In this document: one piece after another, positions 200 through 25,086 of the stretch
Layout: each line of letters starts with the position of its first letter
How positions within the stretch are numbered: the first letter of the stretch is position 1
Source: a virus
Direction: 5' to 3' (one strand)
Length of the DNA: 28,623 bases
IMG/VR virus record: IMGVR_UViG_3300047386_000057
Location: 1-28,623 of that record
The notes under the pieces: generated by a model
The model's input: only the letters and a program-made list of their open reading frames with translations
Database searches by the model: none
What the model was told of the DNA's origin: nothing
Program-made: the position numbers and the translations under genes

Positions 200-3100
200 A
201 TGGCATATTACATAGGCACACAAGAGTTTGCAACTATTGGTGAAGCCACGGACTTCATGCGTAGGAATCCTGACGTAGCAGAAGAAGGTTTACGCATCAC
301 GTCTGAGCCTGTAGAAAGCGAAGGTATGTTGACTGGCGGAGTAAAAGGTGAGCCTACAAAGCAGGCCCCTATCGTTCCTGACGAGTCTCCTTCTGCTACA
401 ACTCCTCAAACCTTTACGTTTGTTGAGGGCCGTGAAAAAGGCGATGGAGACTTCCAAAACTACCTCTACGGTCAAACCGGAGAAGTCCAACAAGTTACTG
501 TAGACGAACTGCGTGACTACTTTGAAAGTGACGAGGTAAACCGCCTACGTGAAATGTTTGGCACGTTTGATAACTACCTTGCTTACATGACAGAACGTGA
601 GCAGTTAATTCAGTCTGGTGATTACGACACAGGCAACTGGTCAGAGGCCGACGCTGGTTTTACCGAAGATCAAGAAATGATCCTTGAGGGTGACGCTGAC
701 CTTACTATTGACCCTAGCGATCCCGGCCAAAACCTAGAAAACTTACGTAGACAACAAACCAGCACACAGCAAGGTGCTTACAACAACTGGTTGAACTCTG
801 AAGCTAACCAAGCGTTGCTACAGAAGTACGGTGTACAGTCTACAGTGTACAGTGGGTCTGGTGATAAATTCCAATGGAACGGCTCTGCGTACGTTAAGGT
901 AGAAGAAGTAAGCAACCCCGGAGTTACTGATTTTGCAAAGTCAGGAATCTTGGCTGCTATGACGTACTACATGGGGGCAGGATTAACTGATTTTCTTTCG
1001 TCAAGCACATTGACAACAGCTTCGGGTCAGACAATAGCTGGACCCGGTTTAAGTTCTTCGCTTGCTACAGGAGCATCTTCCGGTATTGCAAATGCTGCGA
1101 TGCAGTTAGTAGCTACAGGTGATTTAGACTTTGGAGAAGCTTTGGAGTCAGCGATAACCGCTGGTCTAGGTGCAGAAGCTCTCAGACAAATTCAACAGTC
1201 TGGTGTTTTAGATCAGATTGTAGAAACAGTAGGCGAATACACCGAAAGACAAGATTGGGTTAGTTTAGAAGACGGGACTTTATTTAAATTAGTAAACGAA
1301 TATGACGCCAATGGTAATTTAGTAGACTCTCTTAGTCGTGTTTTAATGCCAAACGGCGGGACTTTAAGTTTTGAAAACTTCTTACAGTTTGCCGCCGAAG
1401 GAAATTTTGGAAGTCCAGTTCTTTTAAACGCTGTAGGTCTTCCTGTTTTCTTTTTCAGAGAAGGTTTACAAACACCTGAGTTTATAGATAGACTAATACA
1501 GGCAGCGTCTGATGCTTATTCTGAAAATGGATCTGCTTTTAATCGAATTGTTAACTTTCTTTCTGGAGGGTCTTCTTCTGGAGGAGGCAGTAGTTCGTAC
1601 GAAGCAGTCTTGACTGGAGACTTAAACAGCACTTCAAATAATGTTACACTTTTAAACATGTTAAGAAGTGAACTAGAAAACACAACAGACCCAGAAACAA
1701 GAGCAGATCTTGAGCGACAAATAGAAGCTTACGAACAAACAGTAGAAGATGAAGATGAAGAAGAAGTAGACGTAACCGAAGACGACACAGTAGAAGACGC
1801 TGATTCAGCACTGGCGGACACGACTGCGGACAACGCTCCGGGCATTACAGAAGAAATGTTCCAAGACGTTGTGGACCAAGTCAGAGCAGACAACCAAGTT
1901 GAAACGCAAGAAATTATTGACGCCCTTAACGCTCTTGGCGTTGCTGACTTACCTACTCTATCTCAGATAGAAGCAGCGTTTCCTGAGTTAAATGACGTAT
2001 CTCTTGGTGAAATTAAGGACACTGTTTCTACCTTGCTGTCTGAAGCAGGTCTATTGACTACAGAGCAGTTTACTGAGGCTATGGCTGGTATACTAACCCC
2101 AGACCAACTGGCTACTGCTTTGGCTGACCTGCCTTATGGTGACGCACAAGACTTTATAGACGCTATTAGTAATGCTGGTTACGCTACACCAGAAGACGTT
2201 GCAACTGCTTTGAACAATGCAGACCTAATGAGCAACGAAGACTTTAACACTTACATGGAGCAGTTTAGAGAAGACGTTGTAGGCGACGTAGGTGCGCTAC
2301 TAGACACAGCTTTTGCTGAGTTTGCTTTCCCTGAGACGTTTACAGACGAACAAATACAACAACTTAGGGACAGCATTGTAATACCCGAAAGCGCCTCTAT
2401 GGAGCAAATACAGGCTGCTCTAGACGCTTTGGCAGAACAGATACCTACTGCTGCTCCTACTTTAGAAGAAATGCAGACTTTGTTTAACACAGAGTTGGCT
2501 AACTTAGATATAGCAAGTCCACAAGACGTAAGAGACGCTTTAGCAGAGTTTAACTTTAGTGAAGCTCAAATTGCACAAATAATCAACGCTTTGCCTGAAG
2601 GCTTGTCTGTTGCAGACTTGGGAACAGCTTTAGAAGGTGTCGTAGTAGGAGAAGATTTAGACGCTGCTGTTACAACCATTACTGACGTTATTGGTGGCTT
2701 AGATATTGCTAGTCCAGACGATGTCCGTGAAATCCTAGCTAACTATGGCTTTACTGACGCCCAGCTTGAACAGATTGCAGGATCAATAACAATACCTGAG
2801 TCTGCTACTGTTGCGGAAGTACAGGCCATTGTTGATTCTATTCCTGTAGGATTAACAGCAGAAGAAGTTGCTACACAGTTAAGCAGCCAGTTTGAAGGAC
2901 TTACCACAGGTATTGCAGGAGTTCAAAGCGGCATTGACCAGTTAGCCGAAGACTTAGGTTTGTCTACGGAAGGCCTTATTGCTGCTATCAGTGGACTTGG
3001 TGAAGCAACCGGAGAAGACCTAACTGAGCTACAGACAAACATCCTTGAAGGTTTAGGGATGCTTTCTGAAAACTTGGGCGTAGACATTGGCGACGTAGTT

Positions 3101-4300
3101 ACCTCTGTTACTGACCTAGGCGAAGGCGTTGCCGAAGGTATTGAAGGTTTAGGCGAGCAGCTAACGGGTCTTGGCGAAGGCATTACAGGTGTCCAAGGCG
3201 GTATCGAAGAACTAGCAGAACAACTAGGTCTGTCTACAGAAGACTTAATAACCGCCATTGGAAACTTAAGCACTGCAACAGGCGAAAGCTTAACAGGCTT
3301 AGAAACGTCTATACTTACTGGCTTAGGAAGCCTAGCAGACACTTTAGGGTTAGACGTAGGCGAAGTTGTTACCTCTGTTACTGACTTAAGTGCTGACGTT
3401 GTTGAAGGCATCGAAGGTTTAGAAAACCAATTAACAACAGGCTTTGAAGGTGTCCAAGGTGGTATTAATGCCTTAGCAGAACAACTAGGCGTATCCTCTG
3501 ACGACATCGTAACTGCTATCGGCAACCTAGGCACTTTGACTTCTGAAGAACTAACAGGGTTTGAAACCTCAGTCCTAACAGGGTTGACTGACTTGGCTAG
3601 TACATTAGGCCTAGACATTGGTGATGTAGTTACTTCTGTTACTGATCTTGAAGCAGGTCTTACAGAAAATATTACTGGTCTTAGTGACCAACTTACTGGT
3701 GTTGAAGAAGCAGTAGGAGGAGTTACTACAGCCGTAAACCAAGGCGTAGAAGACCTAGCAGAGGCTTTAGGCGTACAGACAGACGACATTACGTCTGCCA
3801 TTGTTACCTTAGGTTCGGGCCTTGGTGGAGAACTGACAGAGTTAGAAACATCGGTACTCAGTGGTTTGACAAGTCTTGCAGACAGCTTAGGCACTGACGT
3901 AGGCACTGTAGTAGACTCCATTGGTGGTCTTGGTACTGGAATTAGTGAAAACATTCAGGGACTCTCTGACACGCTTACAGAGCAACTGGGTACAGGCTTT
4001 GGTGGTATCGGTGGACAGCTTGAGTCTGGCTTTGGGCAGCTTGGGCAGCAGCTAGGGTTGGCTACATTAGGACTCTTTGGTTTAGGCGCTAAACAACCAA
4101 CGGCTCAACAGATTGCTGCTGCAAAGCCCTTTGAGTTTAAGCCTTTTGAAGAAAAAGCGTCACCAAGGCAAGTACAGCAGGTAGTACGGTCAGGGCCTAT
4201 AAAACAACAGCCTTCTGCCTTACAACAACTTAATCAATTTTTAGACAGGCAGTCGACTACACCACAGAAACCCCCTAGAAAACCGGGAATGTTAGCATGA
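200..4300 (+). CDS. Large repeat-containing virion protein (fibre- or ejection-like), unknown function
   Basis: 1366 residues; AAGGGA lies 7 nt before the ATG. I do not recognise the N-terminus. Visible architecture: charged N-terminal part (1-235); Gly/Ala/Ser-rich hydrophobic part (~245-330); a Gly-Ser linker near 455-465; a very acidic linker (~513-545, EDEDEEEVDV); predicted helical repeats (~560-905); four tandem 87-90-residue repeats (907-~1262); a Gly/Leu-rich stretch; and a basic Gln/Pro-rich tail ending PRKPGMLA. Each tandem repeat carries a GVQ-like start, LAE-LG, ETS-L-GL-LA and VVTSVTDL. Such regular Leu/Ile-Gly spacing suggests a long, elongated, probably coiled structure. The position between holin and tail adaptor supports a tail or virion role. 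A long fibre, a tape-measure-like protein or an ejected channel protein are all possible; sequence alone does not decide. Confidence 0.85.
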   Translation: MAYYIGTQEFATIGEATDFMRRNPDVAEEGLRITSEPVESEGMLTGGVKGEPTKQAPIVPDESPSATTPQTFTFVEGREKGDGDFQNYLYGQTGEVQQVTVDELRDYFESDEVNRLREMFGTFDNYLAYMTEREQLIQSGDYDTGNWSEADAGFTEDQEMILEGDADLTIDPSDPGQNLENLRRQQTSTQQGAYNNWLNSEANQALLQKYGVQSTVYSGSGDKFQWNGSAYVKVEEVSNPGVTDFAKSGILAAMTYYMGAGLTDFLSSSTLTTASGQTIAGPGLSSSLATGASSGIANAAMQLVATGDLDFGEALESAITAGLGAEALRQIQQSGVLDQIVETVGEYTERQDWVSLEDGTLFKLVNEYDANGNLVDSLSRVLMPNGGTLSFENFLQFAAEGNFGSPVLLNAVGLPVFFFREGLQTPEFIDRLIQAASDAYSENGSAFNRIVNFLSGGSSSGGGSSSYEAVLTGDLNSTSNNVTLLNMLRSELENTTDPETRADLERQIEAYEQTVEDEDEEEVDVTEDDTVEDADSALADTTADNAPGITEEMFQDVVDQVRADNQVETQEIIDALNALGVADLPTLSQIEAAFPELNDVSLGEIKDTVSTLLSEAGLLTTEQFTEAMAGILTPDQLATALADLPYGDAQDFIDAISNAGYATPEDVATALNNADLMSNEDFNTYMEQFREDVVGDVGALLDTAFAEFAFPETFTDEQIQQLRDSIVIPESASMEQIQAALDALAEQIPTAAPTLEEMQTLFNTELANLDIASPQDVRDALAEFNFSEAQIAQIINALPEGLSVADLGTALEGVVVGEDLDAAVTTITDVIGGLDIASPDDVREILANYGFTDAQLEQIAGSITIPESATVAEVQAIVDSIPVGLTAEEVATQLSSQFEGLTTGIAGVQSGIDQLAEDLGLSTEGLIAAISGLGEATGEDLTELQTNILEGLGMLSENLGVDIGDVVTSVTDLGEGVAEGIEGLGEQLTGLGEGITGVQGGIEELAEQLGLSTEDLITAIGNLSTATGESLTGLETSILTGLGSLADTLGLDVGEVVTSVTDLSADVVEGIEGLENQLTTGFEGVQGGINALAEQLGVSSDDIVTAIGNLGTLTSEELTGFETSVLTGLTDLASTLGLDIGDVVTSVTDLEAGLTENITGLSDQLTGVEEAVGGVTTAVNQGVEDLAEALGVQTDDITSAIVTLGSGLGGELTELETSVLSGLTSLADSLGTDVGTVVDSIGGLGTGISENIQGLSDTLTEQLGTGFGGIGGQLESGFGQLGQQLGLATLGLFGLGAKQPTAQQIAAAKPFEFKPFEEKASPRQVQQVVRSGPIKQQPSALQQLNQFLDRQSTTPQKPPRKPGMLA
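2918..3985 (+). repeat. Four in-frame tandem repeats of 87-90 codons
   Basis: Repeat units begin at 2918, 3188, 3449 and 3719 (residues 907, 997, 1084 and 1174), giving spacings of 90, 87 and 90 codons. Each unit runs from G-V-(Q/T) through LAE-(D/Q/A)-LG, an AI--L segment, ELTELETS-like, L-GL--LA--LG-D-G-VV and S(V/I)--L to I-GL. DNA identity between units is clearly lower than protein similarity, so the duplications are old and under selection. A degenerate fifth start (GFGGIGGQLESGFGQLGQQLG) follows. The second repeat unit differs in length from the others only by a three-residue indel. Confidence 0.85.
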
Positions 4301-17288: not shown

Positions 17289-18892
17289 AAGTCGTCCCCT
17301 ATGTGTGGATTAGGGACTTCAGACAGTCTACCCGTAGTGCGGTCATAGGCTAACCAACAGGCAGGTCCGGTTTCTCCCGTGTACCTGTTCTTCAACACTC
17401 GAACAGTCGTGGTGTTCCTTATGTCTTCGTTGGTGTTCTGTTGGTCGCGCTCCATACCTATGACAATGTCGGACAACTGAGCGATAGCTTGACTACCCCG
17501 TAGTTCACCCAAGCTGATCTGAGCACCGTCCTCGTGTGCCTTACCTTGGGATCGACGTAGGTGTGACACGAGGAACAGACAAATGCCCGTCTCTGCCACC
17601 AAGGTCCGTAGCTTAGTCATGATCTCGTCTATGGCTTTTCTTTCGTCTCCTGACTCTTGGGAAGACACGACGATTGACAAGTGGTCCAATATGACGTACC
17701 GGCAGTCAAGCGCTTTTGCCATATAGCGAACACGGGCGAGGAGGTTATCTGCTGAAGTTGACCCCCAATGGTCGAATAGGTAGTAACGTCCTGTTCCCAG
17801 TGTGCTCTCCCAAAACGGTCGTAGTTGGTCCACAGGCGTGTCCTCTTCCAAGTGTAGAGGCCTGTTTGCCGCCACCGACATGATACCAAGCGTTGTTCGG
17901 GCCAGATCTTCCTCAAGCGCCAAGACTCCAATATTGCCTTCGCATCGGCGTAGAAGATCGTACTCAATTTCTCTGATAAATTGGGACTTGCCCATACCAC
18001 TGCCGCTAGTGATCGTGACGAGTTCATAGGGTCTATGTCCTCTGGTTATGTGATTAAGGCCTTCCCAAGGGTACGGGATGGACTTCACGTTTCTCTTTTC
18101 TACTAACTTGTCCCATGTGTCAGTGCCAGCTATGATACCGTCGGGCCTGTAGACCTTCGCATTCCACCAGTGTTGCGTAAAGTCCTTGACCCTGTTCGCC
18201 ATGAGCATGTCACCAGCGTCCTTTAGGGGTAGCTTGCAGATCTTGAGCTTGTCAGGGCTAAAGAGATCCTTGACCTGCTCTACTGCTTCTTCTCCTGCCT
18301 TGTCGTTGTCAAAGCAGAGGACTACCGTGTCGTACCCTTCGAGCCACTCTAGCTGGGCCTTGATCTCCTTGGCGGCATTACCTGCTCCTGACCGTAGAGA
18401 CACAACGTCCCACTGCTTACCTGACATCTCATAGATTGCCAAGGCGTCCAATTCGCCCTCAGTAATCGTGATATAGGTATCTCTATTGCACTGTTGTTGT
18501 CCGAAGAAGCCGACGTTGGCTACGTCCCCCATTGACATGAACCCTTTGGTTTTGACCTCGCGTACCTTTGCCGCGCATAGGTCACCAGTGGACATGTCGT
18601 AGTAGGGGTAGTAGTGTTTCTCTATTTCACCTGTGGATGTGTACTCAACGGTGACTCCGTAGCGCCCACAGGTGTCCTGAGATATGCGCCGTTGGGGTAT
18701 GCTTGAGACCACTCCCCTGAAATTAAGGGGCTTGGCCTTAGGTAATTCTGAGGTCATGCCTTGGTCTCCACCGTGAACGTGATGCTGACAGCTAAAGCAG
18801 TGTTGACCACCGTCGCTGTAGATAGCGAGAGCGTCCGAAGAATTACACTCCGGACAACTCTCGTGTCTTAGGAACTTAGAAGTCTGCGGCAT
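17285..18892 (-). CDS. Primase-helicase (T7 gp4-like)
   Basis: 535 residues (T7 gp4: 566). Zinc-binding primase part: C13, C16, C32, C35. TOPRIM catalytic part: E145 (ITEGELDAL), D195 and D197 (CFDNDKAG). Ring helicase part: Walker A GSGMGKS (297-303), Walker B ILDH (D403), H444 in SHLR (T7 H465), and R503 in KNRYTG as the arginine finger (T7 R522). All key residues are present, so it should both prime and unwind at the fork, partnering the SSB upstream and the polymerase downstream. The start overlaps the SSB gene by 17 nt with no good ribosome site, indicating coupling; the stop overlaps the polymerase start as TTGA. Confidence 0.96.
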   Translation of the reverse strand: MPQTSKFLRHESCPECNSSDALAIYSDGGQHCFSCQHHVHGGDQGMTSELPKAKPLNFRGVVSSIPQRRISQDTCGRYGVTVEYTSTGEIEKHYYPYYDMSTGDLCAAKVREVKTKGFMSMGDVANVGFFGQQQCNRDTYITITEGELDALAIYEMSGKQWDVVSLRSGAGNAAKEIKAQLEWLEGYDTVVLCFDNDKAGEEAVEQVKDLFSPDKLKICKLPLKDAGDMLMANRVKDFTQHWWNAKVYRPDGIIAGTDTWDKLVEKRNVKSIPYPWEGLNHITRGHRPYELVTITSGSGMGKSQFIREIEYDLLRRCEGNIGVLALEEDLARTTLGIMSVAANRPLHLEEDTPVDQLRPFWESTLGTGRYYLFDHWGSTSADNLLARVRYMAKALDCRYVILDHLSIVVSSQESGDERKAIDEIMTKLRTLVAETGICLFLVSHLRRSQGKAHEDGAQISLGELRGSQAIAQLSDIVIGMERDQQNTNEDIRNTTTVRVLKNRYTGETGPACWLAYDRTTGRLSEVPNPHIGDDF

Positions 18893-19253
18893 CGCCTACG
18901 GCAATCTCTGCTTCCTCTAGTACTTTGACCGCCTCAAGGTAGGTTGCTACGCCATGCACTGGGTGAGGCTGACCCAGCTTGTACTTCAGGCGGACTGTGG
19001 AGTTGTATGGGACTTCTCCGGTGTAGGGTGTGCCCTCTGCGTCAAAGACTTTGATCTCGTACTTTGATTTGAACTTGCGTTGCTTGTTGCCTTGGTAGTC
19101 CTTGATCTTGACACCGTTGGCTGCAAGCTCCGCAGCGTCGTCTTCTGACATTGTGATTGTCATGGAGTAGGCTCCAGTGGACTGACCGTTGAACACGTCA
19201 TGTGCAGTCAGGTTGCTGAAGTTAACTACGCCTTCTACTGTTGTTGCTGTCAT
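18876..19253 (-). CDS. Single-stranded DNA-binding protein (gp2.5-like)
   Basis: 125 residues, first gene after the strong promoter at 19314-19342. The sequence is beta-rich (AYSMTITMSED, KYEIKVFDAEG, VRLKYKLGQP), consistent with an OB fold, and ends in an acidic tail with terminal phenylalanine (EIAVGDAADF). That tail is the hallmark of T7 gp2.5 and bacterial SSBs, where it contacts polymerase and helicase. It is only about half the length of T7 gp2.5 (232), so it would be a minimal OB-fold version. GGAG lies 8 nt before the ATG. Context, directly ahead of primase-helicase and polymerase, strongly supports the call even though the core is too divergent to align by eye. Confidence 0.85.
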   Translation of the reverse strand: MTATTVEGVVNFSNLTAHDVFNGQSTGAYSMTITMSEDDAAELAANGVKIKDYQGNKQRKFKSKYEIKVFDAEGTPYTGEVPYNSTVRLKYKLGQPHPVHGVATYLEAVKVLEEAEIAVGDAADF

Positions 19254-19313
19254 GGAATAATCTCCGTTGGGTTGCTTTGGTTTAGTCCTGAGGATGTCTC
19301 AGAACATACTAAT

Positions 19314-19342
19314 AGTATACACTAAATGAATTTACCTGTCAA
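19314..19342 (-). promoter_or_regulatory. Sigma70-type promoter for the replication operon
   Basis: On the minus strand TTGACA (19342-19337), 17-nt spacer, TATACT (19319-19314): -35 perfect, -10 five of six. Expected start near 19307, about 53 nt before the SSB ATG. The predicted transcript opens with a small hairpin (CTGAG, 5-nt loop, CTCAG; 19288-19302) that could protect its 5' end. The -35 box lies inside the 3' end of the 50-residue membrane-protein gene, whose stop falls in the spacer. Confidence 0.85.
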
Positions 19343-19474
19343 AAAAGAATCTATGATTTGTATGCAGGTGTACATAATGAACATCATAAACCCTATACCC
19401 CCAGCAGGACAGATCACATTGGCTTTCCACGGGTTGTCCCGTATCCACTGCTCTAGCTCCTGCTCTGTCTTCAT
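19322..19474 (-). CDS. Small single-pass membrane protein, 50 residues
   Basis: Read directly from the minus strand: ATG 19474-19472, TAG 19324-19322. The start overlaps the previous stop as ATGA, strong support for a coupled real gene. The first ~20 residues are polar and acidic (MKTEQELEQWIRDNPWKANV); then a hydrophobic span of ~22 residues (GGIGFMMFIMYTCIQII) predicts one membrane helix; the tail is short and basic. Function unknown. Tiny membrane proteins in early phage operons often act on host membranes or membrane enzymes, but nothing here shows a target. Its 3' end doubles as the -35 region of the replication promoter. Confidence 0.75.
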   Translation of the reverse strand: MKTEQELEQWIRDNPWKANVICPAGGIGFMMFIMYTCIQIIDSFLTGKFI

Positions 19475-19749
19475 ATTATGTTCACATATTCATCGTTAAT
19501 GATTGTCTGCACATGGACGTACCCTTCGGGCCAGTACGTGTAGGACTCTTTAAGCGCCTTGGCTGTCCTACGTACTGAGGCCTCAAAGTGTTCGAACATC
19601 CCTAGTTCCTCTTTATAGTACCAGAAGGGGATACGTAGGACTGGCTCCGCTGGTCCATGTTCCTCGTAGTACACAATGATCTCAGCGTCGTTGCCTATAG
19701 GCCCGTCGTTACCAAAGTGTTTCGAATGCTTGTTCTGTGGTTGTTTCAC
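19471..19749 (-). CDS. Small early protein, 92 residues, unknown
   Basis: Starts at GTG 19749, sharing GTGA with the stop of the preceding 55-residue gene; AGGAGG lies 4 nt upstream. The protein has a polar start, a beta-like section (AEIIVYYEEHGPAEPVLRI), an aromatic patch (PFWYYKEELGMFEHF) and ends EYVNII. I recognise no family. Both ends are coupled to neighbours by 4-nt overlaps (GTGA upstream, ATGA downstream), so it belongs to a tight early operon. Confidence 0.8.
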   Translation of the reverse strand: MKQPQNKHSKHFGNDGPIGNDAEIIVYYEEHGPAEPVLRIPFWYYKEELGMFEHFEASVRRTAKALKESYTYWPEGYVHVQTIINDEYVNII

Positions 19750-19913
19750 TCGTCCTCCTCTAGTTCAATACCTTGGAACTCTTCGTCTATGTAGTTGTAC
19801 TCTGAATCATGAATTTCTGTCTTCAGTAGTGCCAACGCTTCGTCCTCTGTTTCTGCAGAGATACGGTAGACGTGCTCTATCGTTTCAATGGTCTTGATAC
19901 AGTACCTATTCAC
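19746..19913 (-). CDS. Small acidic early protein, 55 residues (beta-alpha fold)
   Basis: Frame found between two listed genes: GTG 19913-19911, TGA 19748-19746, with GGAGG 7 nt before the start and 4-nt GTGA overlaps at both ends. Product begins MNRYCIKTIETIEHVYRISA, continues ETEDEALALLKTEI and ends in an acidic ELEEDE tail. The strand, then acidic residues, then -EA--L helix pattern is the same as in the 58-residue gene at 21178-21354 (VYEVKVEAESREQAEEIF), so the two may be paralogues. Function unknown. Confidence 0.78.
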   Translation of the reverse strand: MNRYCIKTIETIEHVYRISAETEDEALALLKTEIHDSEYNYIDEEFQGIELEEDE

Positions 19914-20161
19914 TGTTCACCCTCCGGTAGTTCGTCACTGGCTAGGAACAAGATTTTGTCCAGTGTGTTCCTAGACATCACCACGTTGCCACGGTCGTCC
20001 AGAGACAACTCTAGGTCCTTACGTAGGACAAAGGGTATGCCACCCCAAGGGTCCCGCCTCATGATGTCATTGGTCACTGTACGGGCTTGTGTGTAGCCGA
20101 AGCAGTAGACGGAGTAGTCACCCCCGTCGACCACATAAATACTCTTTTCGTCTATAAACAT
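19910..20161 (-). CDS. Small early protein, 83 residues, unknown
   Basis: ATG 20161 with AGGAG 7 nt upstream; first gene after a 72-nt gap carrying two palindromes and AT-rich sequence, so it may head a sub-operon. The sequence looks like a compact alpha/beta protein (SIYVVDGGDYSVYCFGYTQA, then TLDKILFLASDELPEGEQ). The NDIMRRDPWGGIPFVLRKDL centre is distinctive, but I cannot tie it to a family. Its stop is coupled (GTGA) to the 55-residue gene. Confidence 0.8.
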   Translation of the reverse strand: MFIDEKSIYVVDGGDYSVYCFGYTQARTVTNDIMRRDPWGGIPFVLRKDLELSLDDRGNVVMSRNTLDKILFLASDELPEGEQ

Positions 20162-20173
20162 AAGTTTACTCCT

Positions 20174-20196
20174 GTAGTACTACTGTAGTTAACTAC
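20174..20196. promoter_or_regulatory. Two adjacent palindromes, candidate operator
   Basis: GTAGTACTAC (20174-20183) and GTAGTTAACTAC (20185-20196), both perfect palindromes with the same GTAG...CTAC half-sites, separated by one base, lie 13 nt before the ATG of the 83-residue gene. Two TATACT hexamers (20212-20217 and 20226-20231, minus strand) lie just upstream but without a good -35. The layout fits a protein-binding site or overlapping hairpins in the leader. No binding protein is identified. Confidence 0.45.
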
Positions 20197-20233
20197 TACT
20201 GCTTCTACTTTAGTATATATACCTAAGTATACC

Positions 20234-20425
20234 TTAGTAGAGGGTATCATAGTTTTCGTCTTCTGTAAATATCTCATATTGGTAATATTCCATAGTTTCT
20301 GAGTCTACTCCCGCGCTAGCACTAGCAGAAAGGCAAATGCCGCAAATATCAAGAAAGTTACCATGTGCGTCCTTTTTAGTTAATTCTGATTCCTCTAGTA
20401 TTCGATTACAGGCCTTACAACGCAT
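20234..20425 (-). CDS. Small zinc-ribbon protein, 63 residues
   Basis: Start chosen at ATG 20425 (MRCKACNRILEESEL), which has GGAGGA 8-9 nt upstream; a longer reading would need a TTG. Two CxxC pairs (C3, C6 and C28, C31 in MRCKAC and DICGICLS) form a four-cysteine zinc-binding knuckle. The remainder is polar and acidic (ETMEYYQYEIFTEDENYDTLY). Small ribbons of this kind are frequent early phage proteins that bind host RNA polymerase or nucleic acid, but no partner is indicated here. It overlaps the 74-residue gene by 11 nt. Confidence 0.78.
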   Translation of the reverse strand: MRCKACNRILEESELTKKDAHGNFLDICGICLSASASAGVDSETMEYYQYEIFTEDENYDTLY

Positions 20426-20639
20426 CTCTCCAGTCCTCCCCGTGTATTTCAATCATCATACGCTCTAGATGTCTAGTGTTGAGCCTAGAGTATTTACGTA
20501 GGCAGTCCAAGCGAAACATCTCAGTCTCAAACTCGACTATGTGGTCCACCATTGCTTGCTCCTCTGGGTCTCTGGAAGGCTCTGGGATGTCCCCAGAGTC
20601 CTCCCCGTAGTAACCCCTCTCGTATTCCTCAAACGTCAT
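20415..20639 (-). CDS. Small acidic early protein, 74 residues, unknown
   Basis: ATG 20639 preceded by AGGGGG 6 nt upstream. The N-terminal half is very acidic with aromatic residues (MTFEEYERGYYGEDSGDI); the C-terminal half is helical (EFETEMFRLDCLRKYSRLN). It overlaps the upstream 53-residue gene by 11 nt and the downstream zinc ribbon by 11 nt. No family recognised. Acidic, helical small proteins in this position can mimic DNA, but this is only one possibility. Confidence 0.78.
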   Translation of the reverse strand: MTFEEYERGYYGEDSGDIPEPSRDPEEQAMVDHIVEFETEMFRLDCLRKYSRLNTRHLERMMIEIHGEDWRDAL

Positions 20640-20790
20640 TGTAAGCCCCCTGCATACGTTGTATAAGCTCGTCGATGATCTTCTGCTCCTCCTCCTTCCA
20701 CTCCTCTATATCGTCAAGGCCCTCGTAGTCCTCAGCCTCAAGTGTGTCGTAGTAGTAGTCGTGCGCTTCTTCCCATGATTCTCTAGGCAT
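20629..20790 (-). CDS. Small highly acidic early protein, 53 residues
   Basis: Read directly from the minus strand: ATG 20790-20788, TGA 20631-20629; AGGAG lies 9 nt before the ATG within the sequence GGAGACATAGACG that also ends the preceding gene. The protein (MPRESWEEAHDYYYDTLEAE, then DIEEWKEEEQKIIDELIQRM) is strongly acidic and helical. It overlaps the 43-residue membrane gene upstream and the 74-residue gene downstream. Unknown function. Confidence 0.72.
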   Translation of the reverse strand: MPRESWEEAHDYYYDTLEAEDYEGLDDIEEWKEEEQKIIDELIQRMQGAYNDV

Positions 20791-20914
20791 CGTCTATGTC
20801 TCCTGTGTTGGCTTTAAGTGTTGCACTCACTGTTAGCACTAAGGCGGCAAGGGCCACGATAGGCAACAGGAAAGGCACCATAAGCAGTCCTAATCCTCCC
20901 ACAATGTACCTCAT
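20783..20914 (-). CDS. Small membrane protein, 43 residues
   Basis: ATG 20914-20912 with AGGAG 10 nt upstream, in the same GGAGACATAGACGA context as the next gene. A longer reading starting from GTG 21052 exists in this frame but would override two better small genes. The product MRYIVGGLGLLMVPFLLPIV, then ALAALVLTVSATLKANTGDIDDA, has a ~28-residue hydrophobic span with a proline in the middle, enough for one membrane helix or a hairpin, and an acidic end. The start overlaps the 33-residue gene stop as ATGA. Function unknown; a holin- or pore-like role cannot be excluded. Confidence 0.72.
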   Translation of the reverse strand: MRYIVGGLGLLMVPFLLPIVALAALVLTVSATLKANTGDIDDA

Positions 20915-21012
20915 TCGTCTATGTCTCCTTTTATGTATAACCAGAGTGTGATTATACCAGATGCCGCTAGTAATAACAATACGTCCCAAAATGGTTGCCA
21001 GCTCTCGAACAT
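20911..21012 (-). CDS. Tiny membrane protein, 33 residues
   Basis: Read directly from the minus strand: ATG 21012-21010, TGA 20913-20911. AGGAGG lies 10 nt upstream. The protein starts MFESWQPFWDVLLLLAASGI, has one clear membrane helix (VLLLLAASGIITLWLYI) and ends KGDIDE. Its stop overlaps the ATG of the 43-residue membrane gene (ATGA), so two consecutive coupled genes encode tiny membrane proteins, both ending in a GDID motif. Unknown function. Confidence 0.68.
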   Translation of the reverse strand: MFESWQPFWDVLLLLAASGIITLWLYIKGDIDE

Positions 21013-21014
21013 CT

Positions 21015-21173
21015 CTAGTCATCCTCCTCAAACAGTCCCAAGTCCTCAGCACAGTAAATACAGACGTGCTGATCCACGGCTGTAGGCTGTGCCTCCATCG
21101 TGTCTAGGTGTAGCACGTAGCTCTCATTTCTGTACCACTCGCCACACTCAGCGCATTCGTATACCTCGCCCAT
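21015..21173 (-). CDS. Small zinc-ribbon protein, 52 residues
   Basis: Read directly from the minus strand: ATG 21173-21171, TAG 21017-21015, AGGAGG 9 nt upstream. Two CxxC pairs (C7-AE-C10 in YECAECGEW and C38-IY-C41 in VCIYCAED) form a zinc ribbon with a ~27-residue connecting part; the tail is acidic (FEEDD). It lies 4 nt after the 58-residue gene and 2 nt before the 33-residue gene. A second ribbon protein sits at 20234-20425. Function unknown. Confidence 0.75.
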   Translation of the reverse strand: MGEVYECAECGEWYRNESYVLHLDTMEAQPTAVDQHVCIYCAEDLGLFEEDD

Positions 21174-21177
21174 GCTT

Positions 21178-21354
21178 CTAGTCCTCCTGTCGTAGCGTGA
21201 GGTAATCCGCTGGCTCTATGTCCAGCGTATGAACCCGCAGTAGTTCCTCCCAGTCTCCGAAGTTGTCGAATATTTCCTCCGCCTGTTCTCTGGACTCTGC
21301 TTCAACTTTGACCTCGTATACTTTGGTCATGATTACTTGATATGTACGCTTCAT
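21178..21354 (-). CDS. Small early protein, 58 residues (beta-alpha-beta fold)
   Basis: Start set at ATG 21354 (MKRTYQVIMTKVYEVKVEAE) because GGAGG lies 8 nt upstream; an in-frame ATG twelve codons earlier lies within the preceding gene and is less likely. Pattern: strand, strand, acidic turn, helix (SREQAEEIFDNF), then strand. It resembles the 55-residue product at 19746-19913 and could be its paralogue. No family name or function known to me. Confidence 0.76.
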   Translation of the reverse strand: MKRTYQVIMTKVYEVKVEAESREQAEEIFDNFGDWEELLRVHTLDIEPADYLTLRQED

Positions 21355-21356
21355 CT

Positions 21357-21581
21357 CTAGCGCCTCCCTTGTCGTAGCTTGGACCACCATCGTATGACTC
21401 TCCAGAATCTCCGGTGGTTCTTATCAGTGTCTAGGAATCCTAGCTTGTCTCTCAACCCACACAGAAGCCGTGAGTAGTTGTTAATGGTGTACTCTGGGTA
21501 CATGAAGCCCTTGCGTCCGTCGTAGATGTCCCAGACGTGGTCTTCGTGGTTGTACCAGATTGTGTATCGTCCAAAGTTCAT
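21357..21581 (-). CDS. Small basic/aromatic early protein, 74 residues
   Basis: Start at ATG 21581, which shares ATGA with the stop of the preceding gene; the longer open frame upstream lies inside that gene. N-terminus MNFGRYTIWYNHEDHVWDIY is beta-like with many aromatics and His; YPEYTINNYSRLLCGLRDKL looks helical; the end is strongly basic with Trp (RRFWRVIRWWSKLRQGRR). The basic tail could bind nucleic acid or membrane. Family unknown. Confidence 0.76.
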   Translation of the reverse strand: MNFGRYTIWYNHEDHVWDIYDGRKGFMYPEYTINNYSRLLCGLRDKLGFLDTDKNHRRFWRVIRWWSKLRQGRR

Positions 21582-21817
21582 GCTGTAGCCCTCGCGTTTA
21601 TGCTGTCCTGTGTCAGTGTGTCGCAGTAGTCCGCACCTCTGGACTTCAACCACTGGTTAATGTGCTTCGACGTGGTGACGCTCCAGAAGTCCTCTGTCTT
21701 GAAGTAGTTACCCTCTGCCGTCTGCAGTGCAACGGGTGTCTCGTAGCTGAAAAACACTGTAGTGCCGTCGGTGAATTCAACCTCTGTCTTGTTACTGCCT
21801 AGTTGTCGTAGTTGCAT
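21578..21817 (-). CDS. Small phage protein, 79 residues (DUF8033-like)
   Basis: ATG 21817 with GGAGGG 9 nt upstream. Sequence MQLRQLGSNKTEVEFTDGTT, then VFFSYETPVALQ, then YFKTEDFWSVTTSKHINQWL matches from memory a widespread small phage family (I believe named DUF8033), whose signature is FFSY-TPVA and SVTTS-HIN-WL. Mostly beta strands. No function is known. It is preceded by a promoter-like pair (21863-21891). Confidence 0.8.
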   Translation of the reverse strand: MQLRQLGSNKTEVEFTDGTTVFFSYETPVALQTAEGNYFKTEDFWSVTTSKHINQWLKSRGADYCDTLTQDSINARATA

Positions 21818-21862
21818 AGTCTTAAGCCCTCCAGTGGCTCGTGTGTTGACTCACTGCTGGAC

Positions 21863-21891
21863 ACTCTAGTGAATGCCCAACGATTAGTCAA
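21863..21891 (-). promoter_or_regulatory. Probable sigma70-type promoter for the small early genes
   Basis: Minus strand TTGACT (21891-21886), 17-nt spacer, TAGAGT (21868-21863): -35 five of six, -10 four of six. It lies in the 79-nt gap between the 109- and 79-residue genes, so expected transcripts begin near 21856, about 39 nt before the ATG. It is weaker than the other promoters in the window. The AGGAGG beside the -35 has no usable start codon and may be chance. Confidence 0.55.
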
Positions 21892-21896
21892 CCTCC

Positions 21897-22226
21897 TTAT
21901 GCCGCGTATTCAAACTGGTCGAAGTATTCGTCAGGCCTTGAGTTTATACATAGATCAACGTCGATGCCAACCGATCTCAACTCCTTACCGATCTCTTGCA
22001 TCTCTCGAATAATGTAGTTGCGTCTCTTCATCAACTTAACGTGCTCTGGTAGGTCCTGACCGTAACCACTGTTCTGCCACTCGTCGCTAGCGTAGTACTG
22101 TGACAGCTCCTCTAGAATCTCTGTCCAATCGCTGTAGTAAATGGCGTACATCTCAACAGCGGTAGACAATGTGCGGTGGCTGTTCTCAAGTGTCTCGTGG
22201 AGACCGTAGTTAACTTGCTTAGTCAT
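21897..22226 (-). CDS. Helical early protein, 109 residues, first minus-strand gene
   Basis: Starts at ATG 22226 (MTKQVNYGLHETLENSHRTL), or five codons earlier at ATG 22241 (MRIII). Neither has a good ribosome site. The frame stays open to 22400, but that part has no phage-like composition, so I treat it as leader. The protein looks helical with many Tyr and charged residues (WTEILEELSQYYASDEW, then RNYIIREMQEIGKELRSVGI) and ends DEYFDQFEYAA. No family recognised. Its start codon lies within a Fur-box-like palindrome, which would make its expression sensitive to iron if the host regulator binds. Confidence 0.72.
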   Translation of the reverse strand: MTKQVNYGLHETLENSHRTLSTAVEMYAIYYSDWTEILEELSQYYASDEWQNSGYGQDLPEHVKLMKRRNYIIREMQEIGKELRSVGIDVDLCINSRPDEYFDQFEYAA

Positions 22227-22242
22227 GATAATGATTCTCATT
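22224..22242. promoter_or_regulatory. Fur-box-like palindrome over the first early-gene start
   Basis: On the minus strand the 19-mer AATGAGAATCATTATCATG matches the Vibrio-type Fur consensus AATGANAATNATTNTCATT at every specified position but the last. Against the E. coli 19-bp consensus (GATAATGATAATCATTATC), in a shifted alignment, it matches 15 of 19. It overlaps both candidate start codons of the 109-residue gene. Only the sequence match is seen; binding is inference. Confidence 0.5.
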
Positions 22243-22401
22243 TGGGGTGGCTTCGGTCCCCGTCTCGCCATGTGTGTAGTAAACCAGAAACCCAGTTGAG
22301 AAACAAGGGTAAATATTTCACACAAATAGACTATTGACCACAGCCCATGATGTATGCTAATCGCGTGTGCGCGTGTAATAAATAGCTCGCGTAGCAACAA
22401 T

Positions 22402-22493
22402 CATGCCAACCTATGGGGACCAACATAAGCCCACACACTTGTCAACTCATGCAAATCCCATGCCAAGTTACCCCATGCAAGGACCATGCCAAC
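22402..22493 (+). repeat. Iteron-like CATGCCAA/CATGCAA repeats
   Basis: CATGCCAA at 22402, 22459 and 22485; CATGCAA at 22448 and 22474. The last four form two copies of an arrangement CATGCAA, 4 nt, CATGCCAA, with starts 11 nt apart, repeated at 26 nt. Eleven-nt spacing puts the sites on one face of the helix, as in iterons or arrays bound by an initiator or repressor. Confidence 0.6.
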
Positions 22494-22709
22494 TCTAGTC
22501 GCTACCATAGGCCGCGCCCTGTGTCAACTTTTGTTGAAACCCGCGTAGAAACTAGGGGCGGGGGAGGGGTTGACATGTGTTAGACTTTTGTAGTAGCTAC
22601 CTAGGCACAAAATAGGGTAAAATTAGGAAAATTACCCCTAAATTAAACTCGTGTAAGCCGTTGATTATACTCGTGTTTGTACTTCTACTGCTTTTACCTC
22701 TAAAATAGC

Positions 22710-22738
22710 TTGACTTTTATGTAAACTTATGGTATACT
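22710..22738 (+). promoter_or_regulatory. Sigma70-type promoter for the packaging operon
   Basis: TTGACT (22710-22715), 17-nt spacer, TATACT (22733-22738); five of six in each box. Expected start near 22745, about 22 nt before the ATG of the AT-hook gene. The spacer ends TATGG, as does the spacer of the promoter at 28046-28074. Confidence 0.82.
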
Positions 22739-22766
22739 ATTGTTGTAATCAGGGATAATTTATGTT

Positions 22767-23153
22767 ATGACCGACGTTGTTAAAAAAAGAGGTCGTGGCA
22801 GACCCCGGAAGTCAGAAGTAGCCGCTGTAAAGCCCGGTAACAAGGGTGTAGTAGGCCGACCAAAGGGTGACGCAGCGATAATTAACGAGTACAAAGCTCG
22901 TATGCTGGCTAGTCCTAAGTCACGTAAGGTCCTAGAGACAATATTTGATGCTGCTTTGGACCATGACCATAAAAATCAAGCTGCTGCTTGGAAACTTGTG
23001 ATGGACCGTATACTACCAGTGGGTGCCTTTGAGAAGGACGTAGTAAAAGATGCTGGTCGCAACGCTATACAAATTAATATTTCTGGTGTTGGTGCTGTTG
23101 ACGTGGGCACTCCTGAAATCATCGAAGGAGAAGTAGTAGAAGATGACTCTTAA
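22767..23153 (+). CDS. AT-hook DNA-binding protein, candidate small terminase subunit
   Basis: 128 residues. Two AT-hook-like motifs in the basic N-terminus: RGRGRPRKS (~8-16) and VGRPKG (~29-34), which would grip the minor groove of AT-rich DNA. The middle is helical (IINEYKARMLASPKSRKVLE, then NQAAAWKLVMDRILP); the C-terminus is beta-like and acidic (INISGVGAVDVG ... VVEDDS). It is the first gene after the packaging promoter, upstream of endolysin and large terminase; small terminase subunits often sit here and recognise the packaging site. ATG 22767 is used because the ATG at 22762 hits a stop two codons on; AGGGA is 11 nt upstream. The small-terminase role is inferred. Confidence 0.8.
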   Translation: MTDVVKKRGRGRPRKSEVAAVKPGNKGVVGRPKGDAAIINEYKARMLASPKSRKVLETIFDAALDHDHKNQAAAWKLVMDRILPVGAFEKDVVKDAGRNAIQINISGVGAVDVGTPEIIEGEVVEDDS

Positions 23154-23493
23154 GTACTTTACTAGAGAAGAATTCGACTGTCAGGTCACTGGTACTAACA
23201 ATATGGAACAAGAGTTCCTAGAAAAGTTAGACCAATTGCGGGGTGCATGTGGCTTCCCCTTTGAGGTAACGTCAGGTTACCGTCATCCAACTCAGCACCC
23301 TATTGAAAGAAAAAAGGAAGTGCCGGGAACACATGCGCAGGGGATTGCGGCTGACATAAAAATAACAAACGCCGCTCACCGCTACACCATTGCAGCTAAT
23401 GCTTTAAACCTTGGTTTTACTGGTATAGGCATTGCTGATACGTTTGTACATGTGGACACTAGGGGCACTACTCCAGTGCTTTGGTTGTACTAA
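23143..23493 (+). CDS. Peptidase M15-type endolysin
   Basis: 116 residues, a single catalytic domain of the M15 (D-Ala-D-Ala carboxypeptidase/endopeptidase, zinc-dependent) family. The motif SGYRHP (44-49), then GTHAQGIAADI with H64 and D71 (H-x6-D), and FVHVD with H103 and D105 give the usual zinc ligands and catalytic site. It should cut peptidoglycan cross-bridges or stems for lysis. No signal peptide or binding domain is present, so it needs the holin for export. It overlaps the AT-hook gene by 11 nt. Confidence 0.92.
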   Translation: MTLKYFTREEFDCQVTGTNNMEQEFLEKLDQLRGACGFPFEVTSGYRHPTQHPIERKKEVPGTHAQGIAADIKITNAAHRYTIAANALNLGFTGIGIADTFVHVDTRGTTPVLWLY

Positions 23494-23846
23494 TGTTATA
23501 CACAAAGAACAAGAACCTGACAGACACCAGTACGCAAACAATTGTAACTATTCCTGACGGTTACGTTGCACACTGGAACATGGCGTTTGTAGCTAACCTA
23601 CATAACTCTACTAACAGTATTACGTTGTTTGTAGACAAACCTAGTCCAACAGAAGATGTGTATATTTACAATGGTACTAACATATCGTCAAAAGAAAACC
23701 TATTGCTTGACGGTAATGCAGTGTTTGTTTTACAGCCGGGGGACATTATTAAGGCGTCTAGTGGTAGTGCGGGGAACGTAGAAGTAGTAGTTACGTTTGA
23801 TTTAATAGAAGCATCACCGGTGTTTAATAATTTTAATGGATCTTAA
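23493..23846 (+). CDS. Small beta-rich structural-type protein, 117 residues
   Basis: Start taken at ATG 23493 (MLYTKNKNLTDTST), which shares one base with the previous stop (TAATG); the longer reading needs a TTG. Strand-rich throughout (TIVTIPDGYVAHWNMAFVAN, NSITLFVDKPS, AVFVLQPGDIIKASS, VEVVVTFDLIEA), like a jelly-roll or immunoglobulin-like phage decoration or fibre domain. It lies between endolysin and terminase. No function recognised; a virion role is inferred. Confidence 0.75.
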   Translation: MLYTKNKNLTDTSTQTIVTIPDGYVAHWNMAFVANLHNSTNSITLFVDKPSPTEDVYIYNGTNISSKENLLLDGNAVFVLQPGDIIKASSGSAGNVEVVVTFDLIEASPVFNNFNGS

Positions 23847-25086
23847 TATAGAACTACTGCCTTGGCAGCAAGATGTTTGGGCAGACGACACAAGATTTAA
23901 AATAGTAGCTGCTGGTCGACGTACGGGTAAGTCTAGGTTAGCAGCGTGGATGTTAATAGTAAACGCACTACAGGCGGACAGAGGCCATGTATTTTACGTC
24001 GCACCTACTCAGGGACAAGCCAGAGACATCATGTGGCAAACCCTTTTGGAACTGGGACATCCTGTTATTAGTGGTAGTCACATTAATAATTTGCAAATTA
24101 AGCTGGTCAACGGAGCCACAATCAGTCTCAAAGGTGCAGACAGACCAGAGACTATGCGAGGTGTCAGCCTCAAGTTTCTAGTCATGGACGAATACGCTGA
24201 CATGAAACCAGAGGTATTCGAGCAGATACTTAGACCCGCCTTGGCGGACCAAAAGGGCTGTGCGATGTTCATTGGGACACCAATGGGAAGAAACCATTTT
24301 TACGAACTTTACAAATATGCGGACTTAGATGATGACCCTACGTACAAAGCTTGGCACTTTACGAGCTATGATAACCCGTTGTTGGACCCCAGTGAAATCG
24401 ACATTGCTAAACGCTCTATGTCTTCTTATGCGTTTCGTCAGGAGTTTATGGCGTCGTTTGAAGCCCGTGGGTCAGAAATGTTTAAGGAAGACTGGGTTAA
24501 GTTTAGTGAAGATGAGCCGGAAGTAGGAGATTACTACATTGCTGTTGACTTGGCAGGCTTTGAAGAAGTCAACAAGAAAAAGACTAAGAACTCCAAGCTT
24601 GACGACACAGCCATCGCAGTGGTTAAGGTCAATGAGCATGGTTGGTATGTTGACAATATCATATACGGTAGATGGAGTCTTGACGAAACAGCAGCTAAGA
24701 TATTTCAGGCCGTTAGAGATTACCGTCCCGTGTCGGTTGGAATCGAAAGAGGTATTGCTAAACAGGCTGTAATGTCTCCGCTTGTTGACATGCAGAAAAG
24801 ATATGGTATGTTCTTCAGAGTAGAAGAACTTACCCACGGTAACAAAAAGAAGACCGACAGAGTAATGTGGGCACTACAAGGTCGTTTCGAAAACGGCTAC
24901 ATTACATTAAACAAAGGTGAATGGAATTCTAGATTTTTAGATCAGTTGTTCCAATTCCCTGATCCTTTGACGCATGACGACTTGATAGACGCTTTGGCGT
25001 ATATTGACCAACTGGCAAATGTAGCGTACGACTACGACTACGAAATTGAGGACCACGAAATCTTAGACGTGGTAGCAGGATATTAA
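23836..25086 (+). CDS. terL: Terminase large subunit
   Basis: 416 residues, the ATP-driven DNA-packaging motor and headful/cos nuclease. ATPase: Walker A AGRRTGKS (26-33), Walker B FLVMDEYAD with D118-E119, coupling motif IGTP (146-149). RNase H-like nuclease: D238 (AVDLAG), E304 (VGIERG), D385 in HDDLIDALAY. All motor and nuclease residues are present. It overlaps the upstream gene by 11 nt and has no clear ribosome site. T7 gp19 is 586 residues, so this is a compact type. The portal follows at 25088. Confidence 0.96.
   Translation: MDLNIELLPWQQDVWADDTRFKIVAAGRRTGKSRLAAWMLIVNALQADRGHVFYVAPTQGQARDIMWQTLLELGHPVISGSHINNLQIKLVNGATISLKGADRPETMRGVSLKFLVMDEYADMKPEVFEQILRPALADQKGCAMFIGTPMGRNHFYELYKYADLDDDPTYKAWHFTSYDNPLLDPSEIDIAKRSMSSYAFRQEFMASFEARGSEMFKEDWVKFSEDEPEVGDYYIAVDLAGFEEVNKKKTKNSKLDDTAIAVVKVNEHGWYVDNIIYGRWSLDETAAKIFQAVRDYRPVSVGIERGIAKQAVMSPLVDMQKRYGMFFRVEELTHGNKKKTDRVMWALQGRFENGYITLNKGEWNSRFLDQLFQFPDPLTHDDLIDALAYIDQLANVAYDYDYEIEDHEILDVVAGY

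Follow-up and report, generated by a model that had tools for sequence, protein, structure and literature searches.

Why do two tiny neighbouring genes of a phage end in the same 15 nucleotides (nt)? The question is raised by the IMG/VR virus record IMGVR_UViG_3300047386_000057, a 28.6-kb sequence from an uncultured phage, whose whole stretch of 28,623 nt is called the window here. On the minus strand, which carries the early genes of the window, a gene for 33 residues (orf33) is followed by one for 43 residues (orf43) and then by one for 53 residues (orf53; Table 1). The sequence GGAGACATAGACGA occurs exactly twice in the window, at 20915-20928 and 20790-20803, and the A preceding it is also common to both copies, which extends the repeat to the 15-nt AGGAGACATAGACGA, with the copies 125 nt apart. 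The original prediction, made from the letters alone, had claimed that one segment ends both orf33 and orf43 and supplies the GGAG for the next start, and both points were confirmed, the latter at orf33/orf43 as well as at orf43/orf53. Its claim of a C-terminal G-D-I-D holds in so far as both copies encode these residues, but they are not at the very end, the tails being GDID-E and GDID-DA. Two origins had been proposed, namely that the segment was duplicated or that a dual coding and ribosome-site function is selected. We consider it very probable that both copies follow a single rule, which holds for the packed early genes of this phage lineage: the final codons of each small gene also serve as the Shine-Dalgarno (SD) sequence of the gene after it, whose own first codons overlap the preceding stop.

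Relatives were fetched with the annealing-protein gene of the window and then with alignments of orf53 and orf33. Of the confirmed stretches (248, 115 and 105, respectively), each search kept the 80 best, which caps the set, and together they gave 239 loci, many of them on the same contigs, one contig often appearing under several locus ids. Both orf33 and orf53 were present in 187 sequences, the window included, from which seven were dropped because the genes were more than 2500 nt apart (L214, L217, L225, L227 and L230), orf33 ran off the end (L117) or the start was bad (L201). The remaining 180 collapsed into 80 distinct arrangements, two being counted as one when they agreed exactly over the stretch that begins at the orf33 start and reaches 60 nt into orf53. 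Gene chains were obtained for 79 of them, with 226 junctions including those of the window, while L131 could not be chained and was left out; some counts of the contents of the slot between orf33 and orf53 cover 78 chained arrangements. The family labels of the slot genes are partly our own, for example YIVG for the family of orf43, and the BLASTP clusters MIEN plus YIVG, WEPL plus MIND and METxVL plus orf33 were split by eye.

Across these relatives, an SD core (GGAG, GAGG, AGGA or GGGG) lies at -18 to -4 of the next start in 219 of the 226 junctions, and in 216 of these 219 it is wholly within upstream sense codons. In 215 junctions the upstream stop overlaps the downstream gene, most often by 8 nt (81) or 4 nt (67), followed by 1 nt (35) and 11 nt (32). 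The head of orf53 reads ATGNNTAR in 76 of 78 arrangements and thus stops any upstream gene that runs in in the right frame. The core is found in all three codon phases (71, 54 and 29 of 154 distinct junctions). The SD core is therefore near the next start, within upstream codons, and is kept while peptide, phase and neighbour change. As to the RNA, the predicted fold leaves the GGAG before orf43 unpaired, and structure over the two junctions is ordinary (z 0.68). Two further regularities were not relied on: the overlap class is better told by the downstream than by the upstream family (0.32 versus 1.03 bits, n = 113), a comparison biased by the larger number of downstream families, and codon 2 of orf53 sets the last residue of the upstream protein in 71 of 71 cases, which follows from the geometry of the 8-nt overlap.

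Synonymous codon choice separates the ribosome site from the peptide. Where a tail glycine codon stands at -13 or -14, so that its third base is within the GGAG, it is GGA or GGG in all 75 distinct junctions; at -10 the same two codons make up 8 of 20 (Fisher test between the positions, 2.3e-10). The background is 0.385 in the same small genes and 0.41 in the large genes of the window, and all tail glycine codons at -16 to -8 taken together give 89 of 102 (binomial 2e-24 against 0.385). Grouping by gene pair and 85% body identity leaves the pattern in place, with GGA or GGG in 51 of 51 groups at -13/-14 versus 4 of 11 at -10. A control within one gene is provided by orf33: in its 25 tails with a 4-nt overlap the glycine codon is always GGA or GGG, while the next codon is GAC, GAT, GAA or GAG and the one after has six forms; before MIND, with an 8-nt overlap, the same glycine codon is at -10 and reads GGA in three, GGT in three and GGC in one. 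Synonymous choice is thus biased where the base is part of the GGAG. On the strength of the junction rule, the glycine codon bias and the counts grouped by relatedness, the proposed selection of a dual function is supported, and dual coding and ribosome-site use is real and general in the lineage as sampled. As a separate observation, the next-to-last codon of the 25 orf33 tails with a 4-nt overlap is GAC in all 25 (GAC makes up 206 of 272 Asp codons in the large window genes), and GAT at this place would make a decoy ATG four bases 5' of the true start.

The slot itself varies widely. It holds one gene in 36 of the 78 arrangements, none in 7 and two to eight in 35, and the genes directly after orf33 are of 13 kinds, when there is one at all. 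Many of the products are hydrophobic: the best 19-residue Kyte-Doolittle mean is 1.88 for orf33 and 2.65 for orf43, and it exceeds 1.6 in 13/13 YIVG proteins (the kind in the window), 10/10 MIND, 4/4 WEPL, 2/2 MIEN and 31/31 METxVL, as well as in 60 of 79 orf33 proteins. RLFIW is borderline (0/7 over 1.6, median 1.51), and F2, F3, F7 and F9 are among the other slot genes and look soluble. For orf33 and orf43, the earlier label of tiny membrane proteins is consistent with these values, which are not proof of it. The METxVLxLLW...IKG gene (L014, L021, L054, L063 and others), which is small and hydrophobic, clusters with orf33 (BLASTP E 1e-3), which points to a possible paralogue within the slot. 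Unusual inserts are seen in L216 and L238, with eight genes in the former and three in the latter, one of them of 194 amino acids.

The tails could instead be selected as protein, for example an acidic G-D-x-D end forming a contact between the small membrane proteins, with the ribosome site following from it. Acidic residues are indeed common, D and E making up 30% of the last eight residues over the 226 junctions, and K-G-[DE]-x-D is frequent in orf33. However, a given protein changes its tail with its neighbour: orf33 ends in KGELDE, KGELD, KGELTDD or KGELDD depending on what follows; METxVL ends in GEDR before WEPL and RLFIW, in GDSDE or GDSDK before F9 and in GGDSDA, GDNDA and others before orf53; and MIEN ends in GDKDT before WEPL and in GDKDND before orf53. 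Moreover, some tails are basic (IRKRRCTK, IDKKERDK) and retain the SD core, and the synonymous bias is found where the choice makes the SD. Selection of the acidic tail as protein is therefore improbable in our judgement. Tails that vary with the neighbour, together with an SD in three codon phases, indicate that the tail is shaped in the first place for the ribosome.

The most likely mechanism behind the shared segment is termination-reinitiation coupling in modular small-gene cassettes, the coupling being suggested by the overlaps. A ribosome finishing one small protein would be kept or recaptured by the SD and would restart at the overlapping ATG, and several small, often hydrophobic proteins would be made in linked amounts. 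The slot could accept different small genes, since each head would close the previous frame and each tail would open the next. The overlaps might also be read as sites of programmed frameshifting that fuses the small proteins, for the frame of orf43 is open upstream through orf33 (an 89-amino-acid frame at 20783-21052) and an A-run lies 5' of the first SD. Among the relatives, however, the frame relation varies, the genes overlapping by 4, 8, 1 or 11 nt or being separated by a gap, whereas the starts with their SD are conserved. Thus no single shift is conserved, and a frameshift fusion is highly improbable.

Several points weigh against the reading of the segment as a ribosome site kept in coding sequence. 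Seven of the 226 junctions have no SD core: one in L067, two in L216 and four of orf33 to MIND, of which three read GGTGAG and the fourth GGCGAG. The split between -13/-14 and -10 was chosen after the position table had been seen, and -10 is not a fully neutral control, because GGAGGT or GGTGA there may still pair with the anti-SD. Many of the sequences are close relatives, for which the grouping at 85% identity corrects in part. METxVL before YIVG ends in GENDA, near its GDNDA before orf53, so that the switch of the tail with the neighbour is not absolute. In addition, according to the excerpted text of a study in Nat Commun 2019 (PMC6728339), removal of the SD had no or a small effect in some overlapping pairs. 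Finally, in single-insert genomes the two ends are slightly more alike within than between genomes: without the window (n = 36), their best 14-nt match averages 8.75 within and 8.48 across genomes (permutation p 0.03), an excess of 0.27 of 14 bases, and with the window (n = 37) the values are 8.89 and 8.57 (p 0.01), against 7.50 for shuffled ends.

A local duplication or gene conversion, by which one gene acquired the 15-nt segment of its neighbour, would also fit this marginal resemblance. Chance alone is a poor explanation for the pair. At up to two mismatches, 0.12 matches to GGAGACATAGACGA are expected per shuffled window, and two matches were found in none of 100 shuffles; of repeated 14-mers at most 200 nt apart, 3 were observed and 0.025 expected, and two of the three are the orf33/orf43 repeat. 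The close pair is remarkable, but a 15-nt direct repeat anywhere in such a window is not: 200 mononucleotide shuffles have a mean of 0.4 repeated 15-mers, and of the 7 observed, 6 come from two repeats within the gene at 200-4300. These two other direct repeats of at least 15 nt lie at 3098-3490, and the gene, of 1366 amino acids, looks internally repetitive. On the other hand, the best 14-nt match between first and second junctions of different genomes has a mean of 8.5, compared with 7.5 for shuffled ends, so part of the identity is set by function.

In favour of copying are the exact identity over 15 nt at a distance of merely 125 nt and a parallel in mycobacteriophage Island3, where, in the excerpted part of PMC3029335 (PLoS One 2011), a 60-bp shared 3' end of adjacent genes is read as a trace of recombination. 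The relatives speak otherwise. Among 37 single-insert genomes, both ends are identical at 14 of 14 positions in the window alone. In scans of IMG/VR that evidently leave out the window's own record, no other contig has GGAGACATAGACGA twice at a spacing of 110-140 nt, nor does any carry the second end together with ATGNCTAR. In degenerate form, the first end occurs in two contigs, those of L002 and L003, whose second ends differ; the nearest relatives of the second end (L036, L085 and L169) read GGAGACACAGACA, two substitutions from the orf43 copy, and have a different first end (GGAGATCCAGACGA). The bases 5' of the two copies are also unlike (ATAAA versus AACAC). Segmental duplication, for which we looked for identity traceable in relatives or reaching beyond the functional bases, found no support, with identity in 1 of 37 genomes and unlike preceding bases. 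The duplication put forward in the original prediction is thus not supported, and a copying event of either kind is in our view quite unlikely. As regards unrelated gene ends in relatives, by which that prediction was to be judged, the letters are indeed unrelated, but the ribosome-site function is kept. As far as searched, the exact identity of the two ends appears private to the window and would need few substitutions. It is probably incidental and looks like a quirk of one genome: part of it is dictated by the SD, and two substitutions separate the orf43 copy from the GGAGACACAGACA of its nearest relatives.

How the slot came to hold different genes is a related matter. In the 150 pairs in which alike orf33 sequences, equal in overlap class, are followed by different genes, identity stands at 0.82 over the ten bases before the start and at 0.99 at the fourth base (ATGA), and falls to 0.27 at the fifth and 0.22 over +11 to +20, whereas it stays at 0.93 when the same gene follows (128 pairs). 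Before orf53, different genes (252 pairs) have an identity of 0.26-0.32 at -60 to -21 and 0.46-0.49 at -20 to -1, where position -13 stands out with 0.96; downstream, beginning with the start codon, the value is 0.92. With the same gene (92 pairs) identity is 0.75-0.87 upstream. The pairs in these profiles are not independent. The profile shows modular replacement at the gene border, and it fits seam recombination and crossovers in the conserved genes alike.

The junctions could accordingly be recombination seams, short boundary sequences at which cassettes are exchanged or deleted by the gp2.5-like protein, a possibility that is compatible with the ribosome-site rule but that we hold to be rather unlikely. 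The varied slot contents, the breaks of similarity at the start codons, the direct joins of orf33 to orf53 in 7 of 78 arrangements and the presence of the gp2.5-like annealing protein, a candidate agent of exchange, are all in line with it. Two of the direct joins (L047, identical with L044, and L052) end in ETKDD and ETKND, resembling the GETKDG and GDTKDD of MIND. Ordinary crossovers in orf33 and orf53 would, however, give the same profile, and 5' of orf53 the different genes have little in common beyond the SD. Furthermore, in ungapped comparison over 16 nt the L052 tail is nearest to WEPL (3 mismatches; MIND 6), and that of L047 is nearest to METxVL and WEPL tails (4 mismatches), with no MIND among the five nearest. 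Hybrid tails were thus set aside as too weak a proof of seam recombination. It can be imagined, as a tentative and not very probable extension, that the locus is a plug-in slot, in which a portable head (a start overlapping a stop) and a portable SD tail stop, start and couple whatever gene is inserted. The seams would then be retained for two purposes, namely translation and the exchange or deletion of cassettes by the annealing protein, which would use them as short joints, and the neighbour of each protein would set its last residues.

Table 1. Features of the locus in window coordinates
Feature	Position	Strand	Description
orf33	21012..20911	-	33-amino-acid hydrophobic protein (MFESWQPFWDVLLLLAASGIITLWLYIKGDIDE), tail KGDIDE; conserved, left border of the exchangeable slot
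orf43	20914..20783	-	43-amino-acid hydrophobic protein (MRYIVGG...NTGDIDDA), exchangeable slot gene
orf53	20790..20629	-	Conserved 53-amino-acid gene (MPRESWEE...), right border of the slot
First copy of AGGAGACATAGACGA	20915..20929	-	Codes GDID(E) of orf33; GGAG at 20925-20928, 10 nt 5' of the orf43 start
Second copy of AGGAGACATAGACGA	20790..20804	-	Codes GDID(D) of orf43; GGAG at 20800-20803; final A also begins the orf53 ATG
ATGA	20911..20914	-	orf43 start ATG overlaps orf33 stop TGA (4-nt overlap)
ATGCCTAG	20783..20790	-	orf53 head containing the orf43 stop TAG (8-nt overlap)
orf52	21015..21173	-	Upstream of orf33; tail EEDD (GAGGAGGATGAC) holds the orf33 SD; matched in 8/80 loci
gp2.5-like single-stranded DNA-binding/annealing protein	18876..19253	-	phrog_112, E=6.1e-9; anchor for fetching relatives

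Upstream of the slot, the gaps orf70/orf52 and orf52/orf33 are 4 and 2 nt, and at both the SD lies in the upstream tail. The end of orf52 (GGAGGATGACTAG) and that of the preceding gene (GGAGGACTAG) form a second look-alike pair of ends right before starts, and orf52 has two CxxC pairs. By Pfam and PHROGs, the window codes for the gp2.5-like protein, a family A DNA polymerase and a ribonucleotide reductase, the last with a match to the B12-dependent insertion domain. Neither orf33 nor orf43 has a PHROG at E 0.1; orf33 has no Pfam match, and the single Pfam model that matches orf43, DUF4870, stays under its threshold (E 0.024, 15.1 of 25 bits). For the polymerase, the top-ranked match in the phage collection comes from Pelagibacter phage HTVC103P (48.7% identity), whose early region contains a row of small hypothetical genes, and the best-ranked terminase matches to cultured phages are partial, with 32-42% identity over 54-71% of the protein. 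Cultured phages gave no DNA match to 18001-24000 in the near search or to 20629-21390 in the distant search. At the protein level, neither orf33 (searched to E 1) nor orf53 (to E 0.1) had a match among them. In a literature search no title was recognised as describing the orf33-orf53 slot, and we do not claim that it is unpublished.

The 79 arrangements constitute a natural experiment in which, for overlapping genes, selection acting on the peptide can be told apart from selection acting on the ribosome site. They indicate that gene swapping in phages can preserve translation signals while altering protein C-termini, and they give a warning that what looks like a short protein motif, repeated at the tails of proteins from a packed operon, can be a ribosome site instead.

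In lambdoid phages, short conserved boundary sequences are found at gene borders. As there, a conserved sequence at the gene borders of the phage could serve the exchange of modules, but the conserved part of its seams is explained by translation. Boundary sequences are named as a hypothesis in the excerpts of PMC3029335, while in those of PMC3556154 the term means genome ends and is not relevant to gene seams. For the mycobacteriophages Brujita and Island3, the former text describes gene replacement with breaks near stop and start codons and a change of the last two residues of the upstream protein. The phage resembles them in that replacement at gene borders alters the last residues and adjacent genes have a common 3' end; unlike the 60-bp end of Island3, which points to recombination, its shared end is 15 nt long, is found in one genome and is largely explained by the SD and overlap rule. 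The closest comparison is with overlapping genes with an intragenic SD, since both the stop/start overlap and an SD in the upstream 3' coding part are present. According to the excerpts of PMC6728339, prokaryotes commonly have overlapping gene pairs whose SD lies in the upstream gene. Of 14 pairs tested there, 13 were strictly coupled, the contribution of the SD differing from pair to pair, and SD removal lowered reinitiation in 4 of 5 Escherichia coli pairs. In contrast to those pairs, the phage has several tiny genes in a row, 8- and 11-nt overlaps are common besides those of 4 and 1 nt, the partner gene is exchangeable between relatives, and the coupling tested in E. coli is deduced for the phage. 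The arrangement is a clear, well-documented example of this known kind, with a modular twist.
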